Positions 1 to 61,391 of a stretch of DNA of 61,391 nucleotides are shown in pieces. The first letter of the stretch is position 1; each line of letters begins with the position of its first letter. Position numbers and translations under genes: made by a program. The notes under the pieces are model-generated. The model did not search any database. It saw nothing but the letters and a program-made list of their open reading frames with translations, and had not been told where the DNA came from. This DNA is from a virus: IMG/VR virus record IMGVR_UViG_3300042866_000779, positions 1-61,391 of that record. One strand, written 5' to 3'.

Positions 1-127
1 TCCCTCTGGCTGGAACGTCCGGGGCTGTTGGGCCCGGGAGATTCCGGGTGGGAGGAACGTCAGGCGGCGGAAGGTTCCTGCCAGAAGGGGGCGGCGGAAC
101 ATCCGGCGGCGGCGATAGATTGCGACC
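1..127. repeat. Terminal direct repeat, left copy
   Basis: These 127 bases are identical to 61265-61391. A repeat of exactly 127 bases is the overlap expected from an assembler using k=127 on a circular or circularly permuted molecule. A coding frame on the minus strand passes through the join in phase (217 + 1118 = 1335 nt, 445 codons), which supports closure. A genuine packaged terminal repeat is the alternative, but it would have to sit inside a coding sequence. Confidence 0.95.
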
Positions 128-45213: not shown

Positions 45214-45450
45214 ATGCCCAACACCGCAGTAGAATTGACCGAGAGACAGGAAGAAATCCTGCGTTACGTTGCCAGCCATGTCGAACTGAATGGGTTCCAA
45301 CCCAGCTTCAGGGAGATGATGGATCGGTTCAAGATCAGGAGCCTGAACGGAATCACCTGCCACCTCAAGGCTATGGAGAGGAAGGGTGTCATCCAGTGTA
45401 ACTTCAATACCTCCCGTGCAATCTCGTTCAACTGGAAGGAGTGGCTATGA
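45214..45450 (+). CDS. LexA-type winged-helix DNA-binding protein without protease domain
   Basis: A 78-residue protein: LTERQEEILRYVASHVELNG, then PSFREMMDRFKIRSLNGITCHLKAMERKGVI. This is the LexA N-terminal domain (recognition helix SLNGITCHLKAM). LexA normally has a C-terminal self-cleaving Ser-Lys domain of about 120 residues; it is absent here. The protein could compete with host LexA or act as a phage regulator, and it is cotranscribed with the serine recombinase (overlap of four bases). Confidence 0.85.
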   Translation: MPNTAVELTERQEEILRYVASHVELNGFQPSFREMMDRFKIRSLNGITCHLKAMERKGVIQCNFNTSRAISFNWKEWL

Positions 45451-46283
45451 AGGCATACATCTACACCCGTGTCTCAACTGTGGATCAGAACCTGACCCCG
45501 GAGTGGCAGGCCAGCGTGTGCCAGACCTACTACGAGACAAGCCTTAAAGACAAAGGCTATGAACTGGCTGGTGTGTTCCATGACCACGGTGTGTCAGCTT
45601 GGAAAATCAACTGGCGTGACAGGCCAAAGGGCAGGGAGTTGTTCAACTTGGTCAAGCCGGGGGACATCATCATTGCCCCCAAGCAAGACCGTGTGTTTCG
45701 TTCAGCCCGGGACAAAGAGAACACCATCCACTACCTTCAGCAAGTGGGGATCGACATTGCGATTCTTGACGCAATGCTGGACACCACTACCGCACCGGGC
45801 AGGTTTGCCGCCCGCATCATCGCAGCGGGGTGCGAGTTTGAGAGTGACACCAAAAGCGAGAGGCAGAAGGCTGCCCACTCTGTTCGGAAGATTCACAAGT
45901 TGCCCATGAAGAAACGCCCACCGGCTGGGTGGAAGTGGGACCGGGCGATTGATGAACTGGTCCCAGACTGGGACGAGCGGCGATTGCTGGCCATGATCTA
46001 TGACCTGAGGGATCGCGGCATTCAGACAGTCGCTGGCTCTGCCCGCACCCTCAAGGACAACGGGGTCAAGCGTGACTGCGGCTACGGCTACAACAAGGCG
46101 TGGCTGTGCCGTGCATACGGCAGCTTCTTGAGGAACTTCCCCCCGGAAGGATTCACCAAGTCCCGTGGCAACACCAAGGTGGCAGTGAAAGCTGGGCGGG
46201 TTAGGTCCTCTTTGTCTCGTGCTGAACGCGAGAGAATCCTGCGCTCGACCGAAGTCGCCCCAGTTTTGCGGCCATCAACTTAG
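45447..46283 (+). CDS. Serine recombinase (resolvase/invertase family)
   Basis: A 278-residue protein. The N-terminal catalytic domain has YTRVSTVDQ with nucleophile Ser10 and Arg8, the IAPKQDRVFRSARD motif and the long-helix region TTAPGRFAARIIAAGCEFES. A C-terminal recombinase-like segment (KKRPPAGWKWDRAIDELVPD ... GSARTLKDNGV) follows. It is longer than simple invertases but shorter than large serine integrases. I chose the ATG at 45447 after AAGGAGTGGCT. Its last 83 bases overlap the convergent sigma gene. Possible roles: inversion, resolution or a second integration system. Confidence 0.85.
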   Translation: MKAYIYTRVSTVDQNLTPEWQASVCQTYYETSLKDKGYELAGVFHDHGVSAWKINWRDRPKGRELFNLVKPGDIIIAPKQDRVFRSARDKENTIHYLQQVGIDIAILDAMLDTTTAPGRFAARIIAAGCEFESDTKSERQKAAHSVRKIHKLPMKKRPPAGWKWDRAIDELVPDWDERRLLAMIYDLRDRGIQTVAGSARTLKDNGVKRDCGYGYNKAWLCRAYGSFLRNFPPEGFTKSRGNTKVAVKAGRVRSSLSRAERERILRSTEVAPVLRPST

Positions 46284-50386: not shown

Positions 50387-50917
50387 TTACCCTGCCTGTG
50401 ATTTTTGGGCAAGGGTTCGGTCAAAAGATTTTTTTATTTCCAGCGTGTCGAGTGACAGCAACTCGGACTGCGGAACGAAGTAGGCGGGAGGCCGATTGTT
50501 GGGGGCTCTCTTCCACCGCTCCTGCTTCGCTGCCTTGCCCAGAATCCAACCGTGGATGACGTACTCAGGCATCATGCCGGTGACCAGCACGAAGCAGTCA
50601 GTGTCAGAGTCAGCTTCACGAACGATCAGCTTGTAGTCATGGCTACTGCTGGTCCGTATCTGGAGTTCACCAACGTCGCCACGGGAGTAGGTGTTGACGG
50701 CACCATCCCAGTACAGGTTCAACGCTTTGGCTGCGGCCATCTCCCCGCCAGCACCCTCGGCATCGACACCCCAGACCTCTAGGCCGCTCAGTCCGTAGGC
50801 TGGCTTAGAGCCCTTGGCCCTACTCAGGACGGTTCTCCTGACCCCGGTGTAGGCAGCCAGCATCATCTCCTGCGTGGACAGGGTGACCTTGATAGGCGTG
50901 TTGCTGCGGCTCACCAT
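50387..50917 (-). CDS. Putative PD-(D/E)XK-like nuclease
   Basis: A 176-residue protein. GGEMAAAKALNLYWDGAVNT, GDVGELQIRTSSSHDYKLIV, then DCFVLVTGMMPEYVIHGWIL matches the general pattern GE.A..K.LG...D........GD......VR......L.V......D..VLV.......GWI of small phage nuclease-like proteins (compare lambda-type restriction-like folds). Catalytic residues E and the D/Q pairs are plausible but not certain. It overlaps the helicase gene by seven bases. Confidence 0.65.
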   Translation of the reverse strand: MVSRSNTPIKVTLSTQEMMLAAYTGVRRTVLSRAKGSKPAYGLSGLEVWGVDAEGAGGEMAAAKALNLYWDGAVNTYSRGDVGELQIRTSSSHDYKLIVREADSDTDCFVLVTGMMPEYVIHGWILGKAAKQERWKRAPNNRPPAYFVPQSELLSLDTLEIKKSFDRTLAQKSQAG

Positions 50918-52488
50918 GAGGCCACCCCCCGCTCTTCAAGGGCCTTCATCCGCCGGTCCACTTCCTGCCTGAAGGCGACCGTCCACATGGCGTTCAGCTT
51001 GGCATCCCTGAGGGCCCACTGGAGCCAACTCAGAGGGATGGCCGGGTCCCGTAGGGGGCGACGTTTCCACTTTCCAAAGGGAACGTAGTAGCCCTTGATC
51101 TTGGGGGTCTTAACGTCCGGCCTGTCGAACAGGTCCCGGGACCGGGAGTCGAAGGTGACCCCGACCACACAGGACTTCCTCCGCTCCCGCTCGGCCTCCC
51201 GCTCCAGCCGCTCCATCTCCTTGAGGGCATCAAGCTCGGCCTGAAGGGCAGCGTCGAGTTCATCCAGCGTCACCTCCTCGTCAGCCTTGTCCTCCTTGAT
51301 TTTGTCGATGATCTCCTTCGGGCCCGCCAGCAACATATCTATGGCAGTGACCGGGGAGTGGAACCGGCTGGTGTTGGTGATGTCGTGGAAATCCCATGTC
51401 GGCTTGGCACTGGCAGCGATGGCAGCCAGCCTCTCCTCTGCCGTGTTCAGTCCATCCAGAGTCCCCGTCAGTGCCCGTGTGCCTCTGCCTAATCCTTGGA
51501 GGAACGTGCCCTTGTGTTTGGTGGGGGCGGCATTGAAGATTTCATTGACCATTGGGCAATCCCATCCGCGACCAAGCACACGGCAGTTGGTGATCAGCGT
51601 GTTCTCGCCGGACTCAAACTTCCTGATCTCAAGGTCGCGCTCCTCGGGTGGTTGCTCACCCCACACGCACGACACCTTCAATCCATAGCGGTCCACCAGC
51701 ATCTCTCTGATGGCCTTGGCTTGGGGCACAGACCGGCAGCGGATCACCCCGTGGGATTTCTTGTGGTGCTGGAAGACAAGCTGGCAGATGTCATTCCTGA
51801 CTGCCTCGGACATGAGGATGCCGTCGATCTCATGAGGCAGGAAGTCAACCTTGGTCTTGGACAGTTCATCGAAGTTGATCGACCGCACCGTGTGGACGGT
51901 GACCCTTGGCTTGACCAGCCAGCCCTGTGAGAAAGCCTCGGACAGTTCCATGCTGTAGGGGCAGGATGTGTAGAAGCCGAACAGCGGGCTTTTCTTGTCG
52001 GCGCGTTGGGGAGTCGCGGTTACTCCCAGCACCCGTGCCCCGGCGGCAATGAACTCCTGCATCATCTCCCTGAATTTCACAGAGAAATGGATGTCGCATT
52101 CGTCAATGATGATCAGGTCAACGTGCCCCACGAACCGCTTGTAGCGACCGTCACTCTTGAGGGTCTGGTGGGTGGCCACGACCCACTCATCACCCGGGTC
52201 AGCCTTGAGCATGGCCTGTTCGACACTGGCAACCCGGCCCCGGAGCCTGCGGATGGTGGCAACGGTCTGCTTGTTCACATTGTCTTGACCCGACACCACC
52301 ATCACCCGTGCCCCTTCGCGGGGCAGGGCGACGAACGTGGTGGTTTTGCCGACACCCGTAGGCAAGACGAGAAGGACCGCTTGGTTCCCCTCCCGAAATG
52401 CCTGCCGGATGGCGACGATGGCTTCCTTCTGGTAGGGGCGAAGGACTTCAGTGTCGAACAGGGGAAGGAAGACTTGTCCTTTACGCAT
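50911..52488 (-). CDS. Superfamily 2 DNA helicase
   Basis: A 525-residue protein. Walker A PTGVGKT at 43-49, motif II IDECDI near 130 (DECD rather than DEAH), motif III TATPQR near 165, and motif VI QGLGRGTR near 330 are all present, in a RecA1/RecA2 layout. RPYQKEAI (residues 17-24) is the Q-like motif of the type III restriction/UvrB-like branch. Long charged coiled region at 415-445. Likely functions in replication or recombination with the ERF protein and the nucleases around it. Confidence 0.9.
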   Translation of the reverse strand: MRKGQVFLPLFDTEVLRPYQKEAIVAIRQAFREGNQAVLLVLPTGVGKTTTFVALPREGARVMVVSGQDNVNKQTVATIRRLRGRVASVEQAMLKADPGDEWVVATHQTLKSDGRYKRFVGHVDLIIIDECDIHFSVKFREMMQEFIAAGARVLGVTATPQRADKKSPLFGFYTSCPYSMELSEAFSQGWLVKPRVTVHTVRSINFDELSKTKVDFLPHEIDGILMSEAVRNDICQLVFQHHKKSHGVIRCRSVPQAKAIREMLVDRYGLKVSCVWGEQPPEERDLEIRKFESGENTLITNCRVLGRGWDCPMVNEIFNAAPTKHKGTFLQGLGRGTRALTGTLDGLNTAEERLAAIAASAKPTWDFHDITNTSRFHSPVTAIDMLLAGPKEIIDKIKEDKADEEVTLDELDAALQAELDALKEMERLEREAERERRKSCVVGVTFDSRSRDLFDRPDVKTPKIKGYYVPFGKWKRRPLRDPAIPLSWLQWALRDAKLNAMWTVAFRQEVDRRMKALEERGVASW

Positions 52489-52703
52489 CAGGCACCTTCC
52501 TTTCTTCGCCGCTCCTCACGCTCTGCCTGTGCTTGCAGCTTTCCGTATTTCCCGACCAGTTCTTCTCGCAGAATTACATACTCAGGGGGCGCGTCGATCC
52601 CGATCCGCACGGCCCCCCCGCTCGACACGTTGATCACCGTAATCTTGATGCCGCCCGGTTCGATCACGATGGTCTGATTCACCCTTCGTCCTAGTACCAG
52701 CAT
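52488..52703 (-). CDS. csrA: CsrA/RsmA-family post-transcriptional regulator
   Basis: A 71-residue protein. MLVLGRRVNQTIVIEPGGIK ... VRIGIDAP ... ILREEL follows CsrA closely: Leu4 and Arg6 at the start and the R-E-E (equivalent of Arg44) after the VRIGIDAP core, the residues that contact RNA. The C terminus carries a charged extension after residue 50. CsrA dimers bind GGA in hairpin loops or near ribosome sites to block translation or alter stability. The seven GGA-hairpin elements at 35.8-42.4 kb are obvious candidate targets. Confidence 0.93.
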   Translation of the reverse strand: MLVLGRRVNQTIVIEPGGIKITVINVSSGGAVRIGIDAPPEYVILREELVGKYGKLQAQAEREERRRKEGA

Positions 52704-53254
52704 CACTCACCTCCATGCGTAATTGGTTCGATCCCCAAGACTCCATCCACCGACTGCTTTCGCGGGCGACCACGCCGCTTCTTCACTGGAGCATCCGGCT
52801 GGCTGCCTGATGGATGTCCGTGTCCTGCCTCTGGGCGTACCTCCCCACCCAACGCTGGCCCCACTCCCGCTCCGACCACTGGGACTGGACGAACTTGATC
52901 CTCTCCGCGAAGTCCTCTGGGATCGGGCGCAACTTCCCGCTCCTCGCTGACCGGCGTTGCTGGATGAACGCGGACTTCAGTTCGTGGAACCGGCACTGCG
53001 GCATCCGGTTGCGAACCTCCATGAACTCCAGTCCCTGCGACACCAGTTGGCTCAACAGCAACTCGTCCTCGTCCGTCATCTCGCGGAAGTAAGCCATCGA
53101 AGAAGTTCTCCGCTTGGGTGTCCAAGGCCCGCTGCATCGTTCGCAACTCAGCGAACACCAATGGCAGCACCTTCATCAGCACGTTGGGCAAGTCATTGAG
53201 GGTGGCCTTGCACAGGTAACCCTCAAGCTGGTCTATGTCGCTCTGGCTAAGCAC
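52703..53254 (-). CDS. Protein with AT-hook-like end, containing a nested gene
   Basis: A 183-residue frame from the GTG at 53254, preceded by GGAGGAGGTGGTCA and overlapping the ERF stop. The first 55 residues (SQSDIDQLEGYLCKATLNDL ... MQRALDTQAENFFDGLL) and the last 30 (VKKRRGRPRKQSVDGVLGIE) look like real protein; the end has an AT-hook-like RRGRPRK. The middle is Val/Pro/Gly/Arg-rich with low complexity and overlaps, in another frame, a better gene at 52783-53097. Its stop overlaps the csrA start. Confidence 0.6.
   Translation of the reverse strand: MLSQSDIDQLEGYLCKATLNDLPNVLMKVLPLVFAELRTMQRALDTQAENFFDGLLPRDDGRGRVAVEPTGVAGTGVHGGSQPDAAVPVPRTEVRVHPATPVSEEREVAPDPRGLRGEDQVRPVPVVGAGVGPALGGEVRPEAGHGHPSGSQPDAPVKKRRGRPRKQSVDGVLGIEPITHGGE
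52783..53097 (-). CDS. Helical early protein, nested in another frame
   Basis: A 104-residue protein (MAYFREMTDEDELLLSQLVS...) with strong helices, PIPEDFAERIKFVQSQWSER and a clear G/C bias at third codon positions throughout. That bias argues strongly that this is the main coding frame for this stretch. It lies entirely inside the 183-residue frame, offset by one base. No family recognised; DNA/RNA association is possible from charge pattern. Confidence 0.75.
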   Translation of the reverse strand: MAYFREMTDEDELLLSQLVSQGLEFMEVRNRMPQCRFHELKSAFIQQRRSARSGKLRPIPEDFAERIKFVQSQWSEREWGQRWVGRYAQRQDTDIHQAASRMLQ

Positions 53255-53942
53255 TGACCACCTCCTCCTTTGGGAGAAGGGCACCGAACTGGCGGCGCAG
53301 CTTGGCCATCTCGTCAGCACTCAGGTCGCCGCTCTCGACCATCCCGTCGGCCTGACCCATGACCTTGGCCAACTCGGCGGGCAGCTTGACCAGCGTCTTG
53401 CACTTGGCTTCCACCCTCCTGAACAGATCGTTCTTGGGTGTCTTGGGTGCAGGGGCAGGGTCCTTCTCCTTGGCCACCTCGGCGTTGACCTGAGAGTGAG
53501 CTTCCTCGGCTTGCTCAAGGTCTTCGGCACCAACGCTCCAGCCACCGGCAAGCTGCAAGAAGAGTTGCTTCTTGGTGTAGGTGGACGCAGCCTCAAGGGA
53601 CTGGTTGTCCTCCCTGCGGTTGCCGTTCTTGTCGATCATGTCCCGCATAGGGAGGACGCACGACAACCACTCTCCCGTGTTGTGCATCAGCCGTCCGACC
53701 ATGACCAACTCGGTGCCCATGTAACCAGTCTGAAACACCGGCATGGGGAAGCCGTGCTTGTTCAGGGCAGGGAGCAAGGCCACGCAGATGTCGCCCAGAG
53801 TCGAATAGTCAAACTTGCCGTACTCATTGCGGCCCGTCTTCCTGATCGGCTTGTACTCCATCTGTGCCTTTGCCAACGCAGTTACTAACTGCTTGGTTTC
53901 CGGGGAAGAAGTGACGCCGCGAATGTAGTTGTCGATTTCCAT
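53247..53942 (-). CDS. erf: ERF-family single-strand annealing protein
   Basis: A 231-residue protein. AQMEYKPIRKTGRNEYGKFDYSTLGDICVALLPALNKHGF is the ERF superfamily signature, followed by EDNQSLEAASTYTKKQLF, its second conserved block. The C-terminal part is a linker plus a basic/acidic helical tail. ERF proteins anneal ssDNA and work with exonucleases, here presumably the nuclease at 54446-55405. They promote recombination and genome circularisation in temperate phages. Confidence 0.9.
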   Translation of the reverse strand: MEIDNYIRGVTSSPETKQLVTALAKAQMEYKPIRKTGRNEYGKFDYSTLGDICVALLPALNKHGFPMPVFQTGYMGTELVMVGRLMHNTGEWLSCVLPMRDMIDKNGNRREDNQSLEAASTYTKKQLFLQLAGGWSVGAEDLEQAEEAHSQVNAEVAKEKDPAPAPKTPKNDLFRRVEAKCKTLVKLPAELAKVMGQADGMVESGDLSADEMAKLRRQFGALLPKEEVVSA

Positions 53943-53945
53943 GTG

Positions 53946-54449
53946 TTACTCCCTTGTTACTATTCGACCTGTGAAAAACAAAACCCACGACCGCTCAATC
54001 TCTTGCTCTATCTCCTGCGCCAATCGAAGCTCGTATGCAGCACTTGCCTCTTCTGGTGTGTTGAAGCGACCTAGCTCCAGATACTTGCCGCCACAGTTCA
54101 TGCGGGCGACAAAGCGGTTGCGGTCACGCCGAACTCCGCGAGGCAGGGAAGTCGCTCGACAGCGCATTGGCCTGTTCAGTTGCTGCAATCTCGGAGTGGC
54201 CGGACGCAGGTTGCACAAGCGGTTGTCTGAGCGGTTTCTGTTGATGTGATCGACAGACAGCGGGGCGTCAGGGCATCGCCCGAATGCCAACTCAAACACC
54301 AGCCTGTGCTGGTACAGGAAAGGTGGCCTCTTGGTCCCTCTCGGCACCCAGACCGGGGAGTTCAGGTAGCCTGTTGGAAGCGCGTACCAGCGGTGCTGGC
54401 TAACGGCTGACTCAAAGGCCGGGTCAACAAGAAAGCTGGCTGCCTTCAT
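53946..54449 (-). CDS. HNH endonuclease with AP2-like domain
   Basis: A 167-residue protein. The first half is HNH_3: RLVFELAFGRCPDAPLSVDHINRNRSDNRLCNLRPAT. The C-terminal segment (GVRRDRNRFVARMNCGGKYL, then LGRFNTPEEASAAYELRL) is an AP2/ERF-type DNA-binding domain. This combination is typical of phage homing endonucleases. It is inserted between the ERF annealing protein and the recombination nuclease, probably as a mobile element. Confidence 0.92.
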   Translation of the reverse strand: MKAASFLVDPAFESAVSQHRWYALPTGYLNSPVWVPRGTKRPPFLYQHRLVFELAFGRCPDAPLSVDHINRNRSDNRLCNLRPATPRLQQLNRPMRCRATSLPRGVRRDRNRFVARMNCGGKYLELGRFNTPEEASAAYELRLAQEIEQEIERSWVLFFTGRIVTRE

Positions 54450-55405
54450 TCCACTCGGCCCTCACTTGAGGAGGATGGGCCACCGGGAATAAAGAGTTCG
54501 TTAACCTTGCCGTAGCCGTCTTCTAGCCAGTCACCCAATGCGCGGCGACGAGCAATGTCAGTGAGAAGTTCGTCCAGCCGACGCCTGCTCTGCTCCCTGA
54601 ACCACTCTGGCAGGGTGATGACCTGCGTCAGATAGGGCTCGACGGTCTGGGTGACCACGAACACCATCGGGGGCTCGGCCAGACCGGCCACCACTGCGCC
54701 TTGACTGTATAAGGCATCGCTGATTCCGTACCCGTAGGTGCGGACGGAGCGGGAGAAGTCCTTGAGGATGTTGACCTCGGAGGTGGACTTCCAGTCAACG
54801 AGTCGCCCGCCCTCACAGATGGCATCCGGTCGGCAGCGGACCTTCACCCCGGCAGTTGATTCCCAGCGGATGCTCACCTCTTGGTGAACGATGGATTCCT
54901 GAAGCTCGACGGCTGCGGGGTTCCGGTCGAAACCGTCCTTCATCCGGCCAAGGGTTTCCCCCATGTCAGGGGAGAGGATGATGGCATCCGGGGCCAGCGT
55001 GGCCAGCCATTCCTTGGTTGCCTTTTTTGTTGACAACCCCCCACTGGCGGTACAATGTTCTTCAGGGGCAGTGACTGCCCTCTCCGCGAAGAGGTCGGAC
55101 CCAATTTCGCGGAGGGTGTGCCACGCTCTGCCTAGCTGTAGGGCCTGCGACTTGGAGTCGGAAGTCCTGCCAAGCTCCACCGCATTGAAGAAGCGGGTGG
55201 CTGACTCTGCCAGCTTGATCTGGGTAGAGCCGAGATGAACCTTGTCGCCGTGATAGAAGGCGAGGGGCTCATCGAAGAGGACATTGGCAAGATAGGTAGC
55301 TTGGGAAGCTAGCACTCTACCAACTGAGTTACGCCCGCGTTCCACGGCAGCGTAATCCTTGCAGTCGGCAGAAGCAATGCGACCCTCCAAACTGGAGGAA
55401 GTCAT
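54446..55405 (-). CDS. PD-(D/E)XK-type recombination nuclease carrying attP at its 5' end
   Basis: A 319-residue protein from the ATG at 55405. LGRAWHTLREIGSDLF (conserved G-x-x-H/W), then VRCRPDAICEGGRLVDWKST, gives the D-x(n)-D-W-K core of RecB/Cas4-like nucleases (Asp in RPDAI, D-W-K in LVDWKS). It would supply the resecting partner of ERF. Codons 23-37 coincide with the 5' half of a tRNA-Gly gene, so the attachment core is within the gene. The weak ribosome site (GGACTGTTAACCCTC) leaves the start uncertain. Confidence 0.8.
   Translation of the reverse strand: MTSSSLEGRIASADCKDYAAVERGRNSVGRVLASQATYLANVLFDEPLAFYHGDKVHLGSTQIKLAESATRFFNAVELGRTSDSKSQALQLGRAWHTLREIGSDLFAERAVTAPEEHCTASGGLSTKKATKEWLATLAPDAIILSPDMGETLGRMKDGFDRNPAAVELQESIVHQEVSIRWESTAGVKVRCRPDAICEGGRLVDWKSTSEVNILKDFSRSVRTYGYGISDALYSQGAVVAGLAEPPMVFVVTQTVEPYLTQVITLPEWFREQSRRRLDELLTDIARRRALGDWLEDGYGKVNELFIPGGPSSSSEGRVE
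55030..55056 (+). promoter_or_regulatory. Promoter-like sequence antisense to the nuclease gene
   Basis: Plus strand: TTGACA (55030-55035), 15 bases, TACAAT (55051-55056), with a T-run upstream. The -35 and -10 are strong but the spacer is short. A transcript from here would be antisense to the 5' part of the nuclease gene, cross attP and run into the integrase gene. Possibly fortuitous. Confidence 0.3.
55297..55338 (-). other. Probable attP core: 5' half of tRNA-Gly(CCC)
   Basis: Reading the minus strand from 55338, 42 bases match a tRNA from position 1 to 42: acceptor GCGGGCG, TA, D-arm ACTC-AGTTGGTA-GAGT, G26, anticodon stem CTAGC and loop TTCCCAA with U33 and anticodon CCC, then GCTA. 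The sequence stops matching a tRNA at position 43. A fragment of this sort next to a tyrosine integrase is the usual form of a phage attP core that matches a host tRNA gene. The 5' half, rather than the 3' half, is unusual. Confidence 0.85.
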
Positions 55406-55556
55406 GAGGGTTAACAGTCCTTTGTTTTCAAGGGAAAAAGCTGGGGAGCAACGCGCCCCCCAAAGTGCGGAGCCTCTTAGAGGGGGAGGTGGCAAATCCC
55501 CCACTGCGTGGCACGGTTGGTCACGCCCTGAGGCGGGCAACACGGAAGGAGGAGCG
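55406..55556. promoter_or_regulatory. Divergent regulatory region between nuclease and integrase
   Basis: 151 bases separating the leftward early operon from the rightward integrase. Inverted repeats (CCTCTTAGAGG near 55470) and a C-rich/G-rich pair are present. No canonical promoter is obvious. The region must hold control of both directions, and after integration it would lie next to the rebuilt host tRNA. Confidence 0.45.
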
Positions 55557-56402
55557 ATGCCACTGACTTCGATTGTTGATGAGTACGTTGATAGCCGTGA
55601 CCTGTGCCACAACTACAGACGGCATCTGATGCGAACTGCTGAAAGCATGGCATCATTTGGCATAACCTCCGTGGCCGACTTGACTCCTCAACGGGTCACC
55701 CGTTGGCTCGACTCTCTGGCCTGTTCAAGGGCCACGAAGTCGAACTACCGGAGGCAAGCACTGACGATAATTCGTGCAGCACTTGGCCCCGGTTGTGCGA
55801 ATTTTATCGAAGGTGTTCGGCGTGTCAAGTATTCGGTTCCACCTCCAGTTGCGTGGTCGGAAAAAGAATTGGAGAGGTTGCTGGCGGCTGCCGACAGCAT
55901 GAAGAGAACGCTTGCTTCAGGTTGCCCAGCCTCCCTGTTTTTTCGTGCGTGGATATTGACGGGCTACTTCACAGGTCTGAGATTTTCGGACGAGCTACAC
56001 CTGAAGGTGAGCCAGCTTCGCGGCGACCGGCTGCACCATGTCATCAGTAAGACATCGCAGCCCTACGTCAAGGTGTTGAACCAAGAGGTGGTCGATCTCC
56101 TGAGGCAACTGGCGGAACACCCCGCCAACGTGGACGGCAAGACGTTCTTCTCTTGGGCACTGAAGGAACACTGGCTGCGGGTCTGGTTCCGCCGCCTCTG
56201 CAAGCAGGCCGGTCTGGAGGGCACACCCAAGTGGCTGAGAAGGAGCGGGGCCACGGCTTGCGAGGCTCAGAGTCCCGGGTCAGCCAGCCGCTACCTCGCG
56301 CACCGATCCCCGGAATTGGCCCTCAAATACTACGTCGATGCCAGCTTGCTGCCGGATGCCATGCCCACCCCGCCACGGCTACAGCATAAAAGGGTTTCCT
56401 AG
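55557..56402 (+). CDS. Tyrosine integrase
   Basis: A 281-residue protein with an N-terminal SAM-like core-binding domain (residues 5-90) and a catalytic domain. The first Arg is in TGLRFSDE (Arg142), the catalytic Lys is probably Lys165 (SKTSQPY), box II reads KWLRRSGAT (Arg228), then LAHRSPELALKYY gives His249 and the nucleophile Tyr258/259. The His normally starting box II (H-x-L-R) is replaced by Lys225. AAGGAGGAGCG precedes the ATG. It lies next to the tRNA-derived attP. Its last 24 bases overlap the convergent 1254-residue gene. Confidence 0.9.
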   Translation: MPLTSIVDEYVDSRDLCHNYRRHLMRTAESMASFGITSVADLTPQRVTRWLDSLACSRATKSNYRRQALTIIRAALGPGCANFIEGVRRVKYSVPPPVAWSEKELERLLAAADSMKRTLASGCPASLFFRAWILTGYFTGLRFSDELHLKVSQLRGDRLHHVISKTSQPYVKVLNQEVVDLLRQLAEHPANVDGKTFFSWALKEHWLRVWFRRLCKQAGLEGTPKWLRRSGATACEAQSPGSASRYLAHRSPELALKYYVDASLLPDAMPTPPRLQHKRVS

Positions 56403-60146: not shown

Positions 60147-61391
60147 TTACTTCCAGCCGGGAAAGAGGAAGTCAGGGACAATCCAGTCGCGGACAGTGCC
60201 CAGTGGGCCAAGCTGCTCGTTGCTCTGGGCCCACGTTGCGTTCTTATTGAAGATGCGCTGGTAGTGCTTCTGGTTCTCGGGAGTGTCAGCCGCCCCCGAA
60301 TACTTCAGGAATTGCTGGTAGTTCATGTGGCCAGCGACTTGCTGAAGTTCAGACTGTTCCTCAGGGGATAGCTGGCCCAGCCGACTGCCCATGTCCTTGA
60401 CGATGGTCTGGTAGTGGTTCTCAACCCCAGCCTTTGCGGCCTTCGGATCACCACCAGCACCCTGCGTATAGAACGCTTCAATCGCAGCCTTGCGGGCAGG
60501 CCCCGGCGGCATGGCCTGAATCTCTGCCATGTTCTTTTGCACAGACTGGGCAACCGTCTGGGGTGGCGGCTTCTGCCCAGCCATCTCAGCCTTGGCCTTC
60601 TCGCTGGCAGAGTGCTGGTCAGTCATGTTCTTGGCGGCATAGAGGAAGCCCGGTCCATACCGCTGCGAATACATGGCCGCAGCCGCGCTGGCAGAGGCAA
60701 TGTCACCACGGGCAGCGTGACGCTGGACATCCTCCATAGCCATCACATACCCACGGTCCACACCCATCTGGCTGGCCACGTTCTGTTGCTTGGCCCGGTT
60801 CTGGATGTTCACCGAAATCTGGGCAGCCTTCTGGGCATCCAGATGATCGGTCAGAGCGCGGGTAGCAACAGCCCTCGCGGAGTGGGCAGACCCGGGAGCG
60901 TTGGTGTTGGCCTGATCGTAGGCAGCCACCATGTCTGAATACAGCTTGGGGTTCTGTGCGATCTCCGCACCGTACCGGGCAGCTTGCTGCTTCAGGAACA
61001 TCTTCCGCCGCCAGTGGTCGGGCACCCCGGAAGCATTGCCGCCCGGTGCCGTCATGCCGCTGCCGTAGTCTCGGAAGCCAGCCGCCAGTAGCTGATCTTG
61101 AGTGGCGGTTTTGGGATCAATCGGCGGCTGTGGCTGCGGAGCCGGGGGCTGCGGGGGAGGAGGGGCCTGATTGCCACCTCCATTCATGGCATCAATAACG
61201 TACCCAAGAACGCCACCACCTGCGGCAAGGGCAGCACCAGCACCAAGTGCAGCACCCCACCCATTCCCTCTGGCTGGAACGTCCGGGGCTGTTGGGCCCG
61301 GGAGATTCCGGGTGGGAGGAACGTCAGGCGGCGGAAGGTTCCTGCCAGAAGGGGGCGGCGGAACATCCGGCGGCGGCGATAGATTGCGACC
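60147..61391 (-). CDS. Internal-virion-like protein, C-terminal part (continues from 1-217)
   Basis: Frame open to the right edge of the window; joined with 1-217 it gives 444 residues (61265-61391 duplicates 1-127). After the proline-rich start comes a glycine-rich hydrophobic segment (GWGAALGAGAALAAGGGVLG), a second proline-rich linker (APPPPQPPAPQPQPPIDP), then a helical domain of about 300 residues (Ala/Gln-rich). Four bases separate it from the 1254-residue gene. An ATG at 61187 is internal, not the true start. Likely part of the ejection apparatus. Confidence 0.75.
   Translation of the reverse strand, partial: GRNLSPPPDVPPPPSGRNLPPPDVPPTRNLPGPTAPDVPARGNGWGAALGAGAALAAGGGVLGYVIDAMNGGGNQAPPPPQPPAPQPQPPIDPKTATQDQLLAAGFRDYGSGMTAPGGNASGVPDHWRRKMFLKQQAARYGAEIAQNPKLYSDMVAAYDQANTNAPGSAHSARAVATRALTDHLDAQKAAQISVNIQNRAKQQNVASQMGVDRGYVMAMEDVQRHAARGDIASASAAAAMYSQRYGPGFLYAAKNMTDQHSASEKAKAEMAGQKPPPQTVAQSVQKNMAEIQAMPPGPARKAAIEAFYTQGAGGDPKAAKAGVENHYQTIVKDMGSRLGQLSPEEQSELQQVAGHMNYQQFLKYSGAADTPENQKHYQRIFNKNATWAQSNEQLGPLGTVRDWIVPDFLFPGWK
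61265..61391. repeat. Terminal direct repeat, right copy
   Basis: Identical to bases 1-127; see the left copy. Counting it once gives a circular length of 61,264 bp. Confidence 0.95.

Follow-up and report, generated by a model that had tools for sequence, protein, structure and literature searches.

The window, by which we mean the whole stretch of DNA analysed here (61,391 nucleotides, IMG/VR virus record IMGVR_UViG_3300042866_000779), is a circular virus genome as judged by its 127-bp direct terminal repeat. It encodes a tyrosine integrase that is divergent from a RecE-like nuclease, annotated as 'exonuclease VIII' by its PHROG match. The nuclease is the first gene of a leftward recombination operon, in which it is followed by an HNH endonuclease and an Erf-type single-strand annealing protein; a helicase lies further along the same leftward gene set (Table 1). 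A CsrA-like regulator (PF02599, 3.9e-16; 52488-52706, minus strand) is also encoded in this gene set. Box II of the integrase reads KWLRRSGAT and is alike in relatives; in most tyrosine recombinases this box reads HxLRHxxAT. The integrases of the window and of the relatives L002, L003, and L007 appear mosaic, with the N-terminal third of the window protein resembling that of L003 and its C-terminal part resembling that of L002. A serine resolvase/invertase (PF00239, 2.7e-25; 45441-46283, plus strand), the second site-specific recombinase noted in the genome, is encoded far from the site described below.

Table 1. Coordinates of the features discussed in the text
Feature	Position	Strand	Evidence
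Direct terminal repeat, first copy	1..127	+	
DEAD/ResIII helicase, further along leftward gene set	50911..52488	-	domain and PHROG matches
Erf-type single-strand annealing protein, operon gene 3	53247..53942	-	PF04404; phrog_155
HNH/AP2 endonuclease, operon gene 2	53946..54449	-	PF13392
RecE/exonuclease VIII-like PD-(D/E)XK nuclease, 319 aa, heads leftward operon	54446..55405	-	PF12684 6.4e-11; phrog_412 1.6e-36
AGCTTCCCAAGCTA, anticodon stem-loop stretch of 5' half, predicted crossover zone	55297..55310	-	DNA alignment, four phages
Core, almost certainly of attP; tRNA-Gly(CCC) positions 1-42 (5' half)	55297..55338	-	sequence reading, Rfam, ARAGORN joining, G003/L004 identity
Translated leader, codons 1-22, upstream of tRNA piece	55339..55405	-	SD-like AAAGGA ahead of ATG
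Terminator-like hairpin with T run, downstream of candidate promoter and ahead of nuclease ATG	55441..55463	-	
Tyrosine integrase, 280 aa, divergent from nuclease	55560..56402	+	PF00589 2e-8; phrog_1 3.8e-23
Candidate leftward promoter TTGACA-16-TAAAAT, antisense inside int	55801..55828	-	11/12 matches
Direct terminal repeat, second copy	61265..61391	+	

Within the nuclease gene lies a 42-bp element whose reverse complement, GCGGGCGTAACTCAGTTGGTAGAGTGCTAGCTTCCCAAGCTA, corresponds to positions 1 to 42 of tRNA-Gly(CCC). The Rfam tRNA match starts exactly at this core and reaches 25.1 bits against a cut-off of 29 bits, which is expected given that the core is only half a tRNA. ARAGORN reported no complete tRNA across the whole window and, with the Rfam match below threshold as well, we rejected the presence of a complete tRNA there. 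When the core was joined at the anticodon loop (55301-55307) to the 3' halves carried by five relatives, ARAGORN recognized a complete tRNA-Gly(CCC) in all five combinations. The initial annotation, which had called the core the 5' half of tRNA-Gly, is therefore confirmed by sequence reading, by the Rfam start, and by the joining of halves.

Our scan of IMG/VR found the exact 42-mer in one further contig, G003 (also labeled L004), where it lies inside the leader of that phage's own exonuclease gene. Between the window and G003, there are no differing sites in the 42-bp core, 25 in the 67 nt from the ATG to the tRNA piece, and 41 in the 60 nt that start 6 bp past the core (leader versus tRNA piece, Fisher P = 7.5e-7). 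Because the core is invariant while its flanks have diverged, it is conserved at the DNA level, with conservation ending near the tRNA boundary. The anticodon stem-loop stretch AGCTTCCCAAGCTA is common, wholly or nearly so, to 3'-half relatives in a DNA alignment of four phages, and it is single-copy per genome in seven phages, in one of them with one mismatch. This shared stem-loop, together with the joining of the halves into a complete tRNA, places the probable crossover in the anticodon loop. As in other tRNA sites of the anticodon class, a tyrosine integrase adjoins the element, which contains one tRNA end and terminates in the anticodon stem. Given that the genome is circular and the core occurs in it only once, the element would be attP, and neither attL nor attR. 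Identification as attP, also proposed initially, is borne out by the exact core in G003 amid diverged flanks, by the complementary halves in five relatives, and by the adjacent integrase, and we consider it almost certainly correct.

Translation of the nuclease starts at ATG 55405 and the core spans codons 23 to 37, in agreement with the earlier placement of attP inside a recombination gene, here identified by PF12684 and the exonuclease VIII match. Because the PF12684 domain begins only at residue 61, attP lies in an N-terminal leader, outside the catalytic domain. The leader upstream of the tRNA piece is 67 nt long in the window and equally long in G003. In 10 of 10 phages examined, an open reading frame that opens at a conserved ATG includes the tRNA piece and is the sole long frame. 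An AlphaFold model of the nuclease was unusable (pLDDT 37).

Start codons are scarce downstream of the predicted crossover. None of 23 leaders has an in-frame ATG within 38 codons past this point, and the first start of any kind follows at a median of 48 codons, compared with approximately 15 expected from codon frequencies; since the sequences are related and constrained as proteins, this difference is no test of selection. The scarcity nevertheless implies that the gene body would mostly be left without a good start after integration. The window and G003 have an in-frame GTG at codon 31, inside the tRNA piece, that could act as a weak start after integration, and a GTG is found 2 to 3 codons past the crossover in the relatives L009, L011, and L081.

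We counted a family of 22 contigs, comprising L040-L054 (15 contigs, several near-identical), L008-L012 (5), G003, and the window. The 15 contigs carry the 3' half of a CAT-anticodon tRNA. The five carry the 3' half of tRNA-Gly(CCC), in a position matching the window attP, and their integrases are 56 to 75% identical to that of the window. The 5' half is rare, occurring only in the window and G003 (2 of 22 contigs). In every one of the 22 contigs, the tRNA piece lies within the N-terminal leader of the first leftward gene, and in all 21 integrase relatives, with Gly(CCC) and CAT pieces alike, attP is read in frame as part of the leader of the first operon gene, which is usually the exonuclease. 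The tRNA half, the fit of the halves, the in-frame placement, and the conservation across the family can all be read directly from these sequences.

A direct search for the CAT 3' half yielded 21 contigs, partly the same as the L040-L054 set. In 19 of them, the piece follows an ATG and is read in frame as part of a leader, with L081 using a different frame from the other 18; of the remaining contigs, L079 is truncated where its stretch ends and L084 departs from the pattern. The distinct main-frame leader lengths in the CAT contigs are 27, 36, 63, 66, 90, 93, 105, 138, 141, and 147 nt, all multiples of three, which indicates that the tRNA piece is maintained in a translated frame. The gene order of integrase, leader with attP and DUF3799 nuclease, and Erf-like protein is kept in the distant relatives L089 and L087, the L089 integrase being 30% identical to that of the window. 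In relatives with distant integrases and the 3' half of tRNA-Arg(ACG) (L065-L076), the piece is near int and outside any nuclease open reading frame.

In two relatives, L009/L003 (IMGVR_UViG_3300032311_000461) and L010 (IMGVR_UViG_3300042884_000410), the first position is taken by an HNH-like gene that bears the leader and attP, and the exonuclease of L009/L003 has its own ATG further downstream. Splitting of the exonuclease is therefore not strictly conserved; only splitting of the first gene is. Near the start of its downstream exonuclease, L003 retains GTCGCCCGC, which seems to be left over from a tRNA 3' end. Overall, placement of the predicted attP in the leader of the operon's first gene is general in the clade, and only the 5' half is unusual.

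The candidate leftward promoter of the window was chosen as the best site there, and relatives consequently provide a fairer test. The best promoter-like sites of nine relatives are in the same place or near it, and synonymous recoding of int attained the observed promoter score in 0.4 to 6.5% of trials (P = 0.004 to 0.065 each). The terminator-like hairpin between this candidate promoter and the nuclease ATG, which has comparable counterparts in L010, L011, and L012, may attenuate transcription into the operon or, once the phage is integrated, into the rebuilt tRNA. Two G/C-rich hairpins ahead of the nuclease ATG (55405-55520, minus strand) are alike in L010 and L011; they could be mutually exclusive and attenuator-like.

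From this arrangement we infer the host gene, the position of the crossover, the structures of the junctions, and any effect on expression. The integrase of a temperate phage would recombine in the anticodon stem-loop of a host tRNA-Gly(CCC) gene, at an attP that is translated within the exonuclease leader. In the circular phage, the leftward promoter (probably the one antisense in int), ribosome-binding site, ATG, and gene body would be contiguous, and exonuclease would be made. Integration would cut the leader inside the tRNA piece, leaving the promoter, the ATG, and approximately 32 codons on the int side, while the exonuclease body and the rest of the operon would move to the opposite end, where the host tRNA promoter would precede them and a good start codon would be missing. 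Because promoter and ATG would be parted from the gene body, the exonuclease, at least, would be made only from the excised circle. In phages with the 3' half, as in most of the family, the rebuilt tRNA would keep its own promoter; in those with the 5' half (the window and G003), it would lie on the int side and depend on phage-side transcription. We consider it likely that attP lies in the leader as described and that integration separates the exonuclease from its promoter and ATG.

The initial annotation had gone further and predicted that lysogeny would truncate the nuclease, put early phage genes under a host tRNA promoter, and hand tRNA expression to a phage promoter, with the 5' half as the cause. 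The predicted geometry does part the start codon from the gene body, but attP precedes the catalytic domain, which starts at residue 61. It also places the host tRNA promoter ahead of the leftward operon, but neither effect is caused by the 5' half, since relatives with a 3' half and attP in the same place would behave alike; special to the 5' half would be only that the rebuilt tRNA moves to the phage-promoter side. A strong drive of that tRNA by the phage is doubtful, because the hairpin at 55463-55441 stands between the candidate promoter and the tRNA.

The searches for hosts and junctions were negative. An integrase alignment found no relatives in the GTDB genome collection, and the exact 42-mer was not found there either; the planctomycete host assumed initially is thus unsupported. 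Among annotated phages there was no match to the integrase and only weak matches to the exonuclease, and a plasmid search gave three weak exonuclease matches and no lead. In the collections searched, we found no host genome, attL, attR, or prophage junctions, and the core is single-copy in all seven genomes of the Gly type. ARAGORN called tRNA-Met genes in L013/L080, L085, L089, and L094, which, on reading the sequences, we judged to be probably leader pairing by chance with the 3' half and not true attL sites. L039 (IMGVR_UViG_3300025015_000014), an unrelated 133-kb virus, carries 27 tRNA genes and a tmRNA within 10 kb.

The strongest rival explanation accepts a genuine attP and regards its overlap with the exonuclease leader as mere compact packing: int, attP, and the leading gene of the operon would be crowded together, the leader would accept whatever peptide stays in frame, and the split of the gene in the lysogen would serve no regulatory end, a repressor already silencing the operon. 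Several observations fit this explanation: conservation is low in the leader, which lies ahead of the catalytic domain; tRNA pieces that differ in sequence and frame are tolerated; and attP lies within an HNH gene in L009 and L010. However, the overlap persists across integrases only 30% identical and across two tRNA targets, with length changes only in frame, and the Arg-type relatives demonstrate that attP can be located outside the gene. We give compact packing a substantial chance, somewhat short of even. Far less credible is that the core is not attP at all, but a tRNA fragment that serves some other function, for instance as a regulatory RNA or as a decoy against toxins that cleave tRNA, or one kept only for its peptide. 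The peptide GRNSVGRVLASQA encoded by the tRNA piece is indeed identical in two phages, but identity extends to all 42 nt, synonymous sites included, between diverged flanks, and in relatives the complementary half occupies the corresponding site next to the integrase; we regard this explanation as very improbable.

A full switch in the lysogen, in which early phage genes are actively transcribed from the host tRNA promoter and the rebuilt tRNA from the phage nuclease promoter, would demand more of the same geometry. The tRNA piece and the operon share a strand, so the orientation is right, and both halves of the exchange have parallels elsewhere: integrated ICEKp1 uses the host tRNA-Asn promoter, with the tRNA terminator displaced (PMC13023037), and the rebuilt tRNA of the plasmid pTN3 is expressed from the integrase promoter (PMC8371274). 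On the other hand, the gene body would have no ATG, so a read-through message would yield little of its first gene product, and the terminator-like hairpin would separate the candidate promoter from the rebuilt tRNA. Lytic genes driven in a lysogen would be harmful unless blocked. In addition, cells that have a UCC isoacceptor may be able to do without tRNA-Gly(CCC). We therefore consider a full switch unlikely, and we prefer the separation of the exonuclease from its promoter and ATG.

If this split of the gene matters, it would amount to a regulator-free switch, in which the gene that heads the recombination operon is disrupted upon integration and restored upon excision. In a broader form, a widespread phage lineage may use the position of attP as a topological license, with the exonuclease at the head of the operon translatable only from the excised circle because integration would always detach its start codon and promoter, and two of its phages may have swapped the tRNA half, shifting expression of the host tRNA onto phage transcription; we offer this tentatively and would not yet favor it. 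If the split matters, the known cases of an archaeal integrase and a mycobacteriophage repressor would be joined by a recombination exonuclease, represented in more than 20 contigs that between them use two tRNA targets. Relatives with the 3' half and the 5' half would also form natural pairs, in which one could ask if the host is affected by where the tRNA is rebuilt.

A limited full-text literature search turned up no attP described within an exonuclease gene, which is weak evidence of absence. Given this result and the precedents of pTN3, mycobacteriophage BPs, and ICEKp1, we regard the arrangement as a variant of a known one rather than a new kind. One close likeness is to pTN3 of Thermococcales, whose attP, with 41 bp of the tRNA-Leu 5' half, lies inside the integrase gene, and whose integration disrupts that gene and leaves the rebuilt tRNA separated from its own promoter (PMC5495485, PMC8371274). 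Both elements have a tRNA 5'-half core and an attP in a coding gene, which in the phage would likewise be split, with a C-terminal part readable from the tRNA promoter. However, pTN3 is archaeal and splits its integrase, as suicidal integrases of that type do, whereas the gene concerned here is a RecE-like exonuclease in a genome of the tailed-phage type, the integrase lies outside attP and would stay intact, and the 3' half is the one used by most of the family. In BPs, attP is in the repressor gene (PMC4557955). There, too, integration alters the product of a phage gene that contains attP, but the BPs repressor loses its C terminus and becomes stable and active (PMC4557955), whereas here the operon's first gene would lose its start. 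With an exonuclease rather than a repressor gene at the site, the window differs from systems of integration-dependent immunity.

ICEKp1 is transcribed from the host tRNA promoter when integrated, with the tRNA terminator displaced, and from another promoter when excised, and hairpins in the 5' UTR attenuate its transcript (PMC13023037). The orientation of the phage operon at attP relative to the tRNA agrees with this system, but in ICEKp1 the gene concerned is int and the effect was shown experimentally, whereas here exonuclease, HNH, and Erf genes would follow the tRNA, with int at the other end, as predicted from sequence. In phages with tRNA-dependent lysogeny, a tyrosine integrase likewise acts at a host tRNA gene, but those phages do not rebuild the host gene and instead bring an entire tRNA that replaces the disrupted isotype (PMC10865867), whereas this phage has no complete tRNA. 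Among 3,919 tRNA islands, Islander lists 159 of the 5' type (PMC4383910). As would be the case for the window, such islands supply the 5' part and displace the host 5' fragment, and anticodon-centered sites form class A (PMC4383910); we found no mention there of an attP inside an exonuclease gene, the feature that sets the window apart from these islands.
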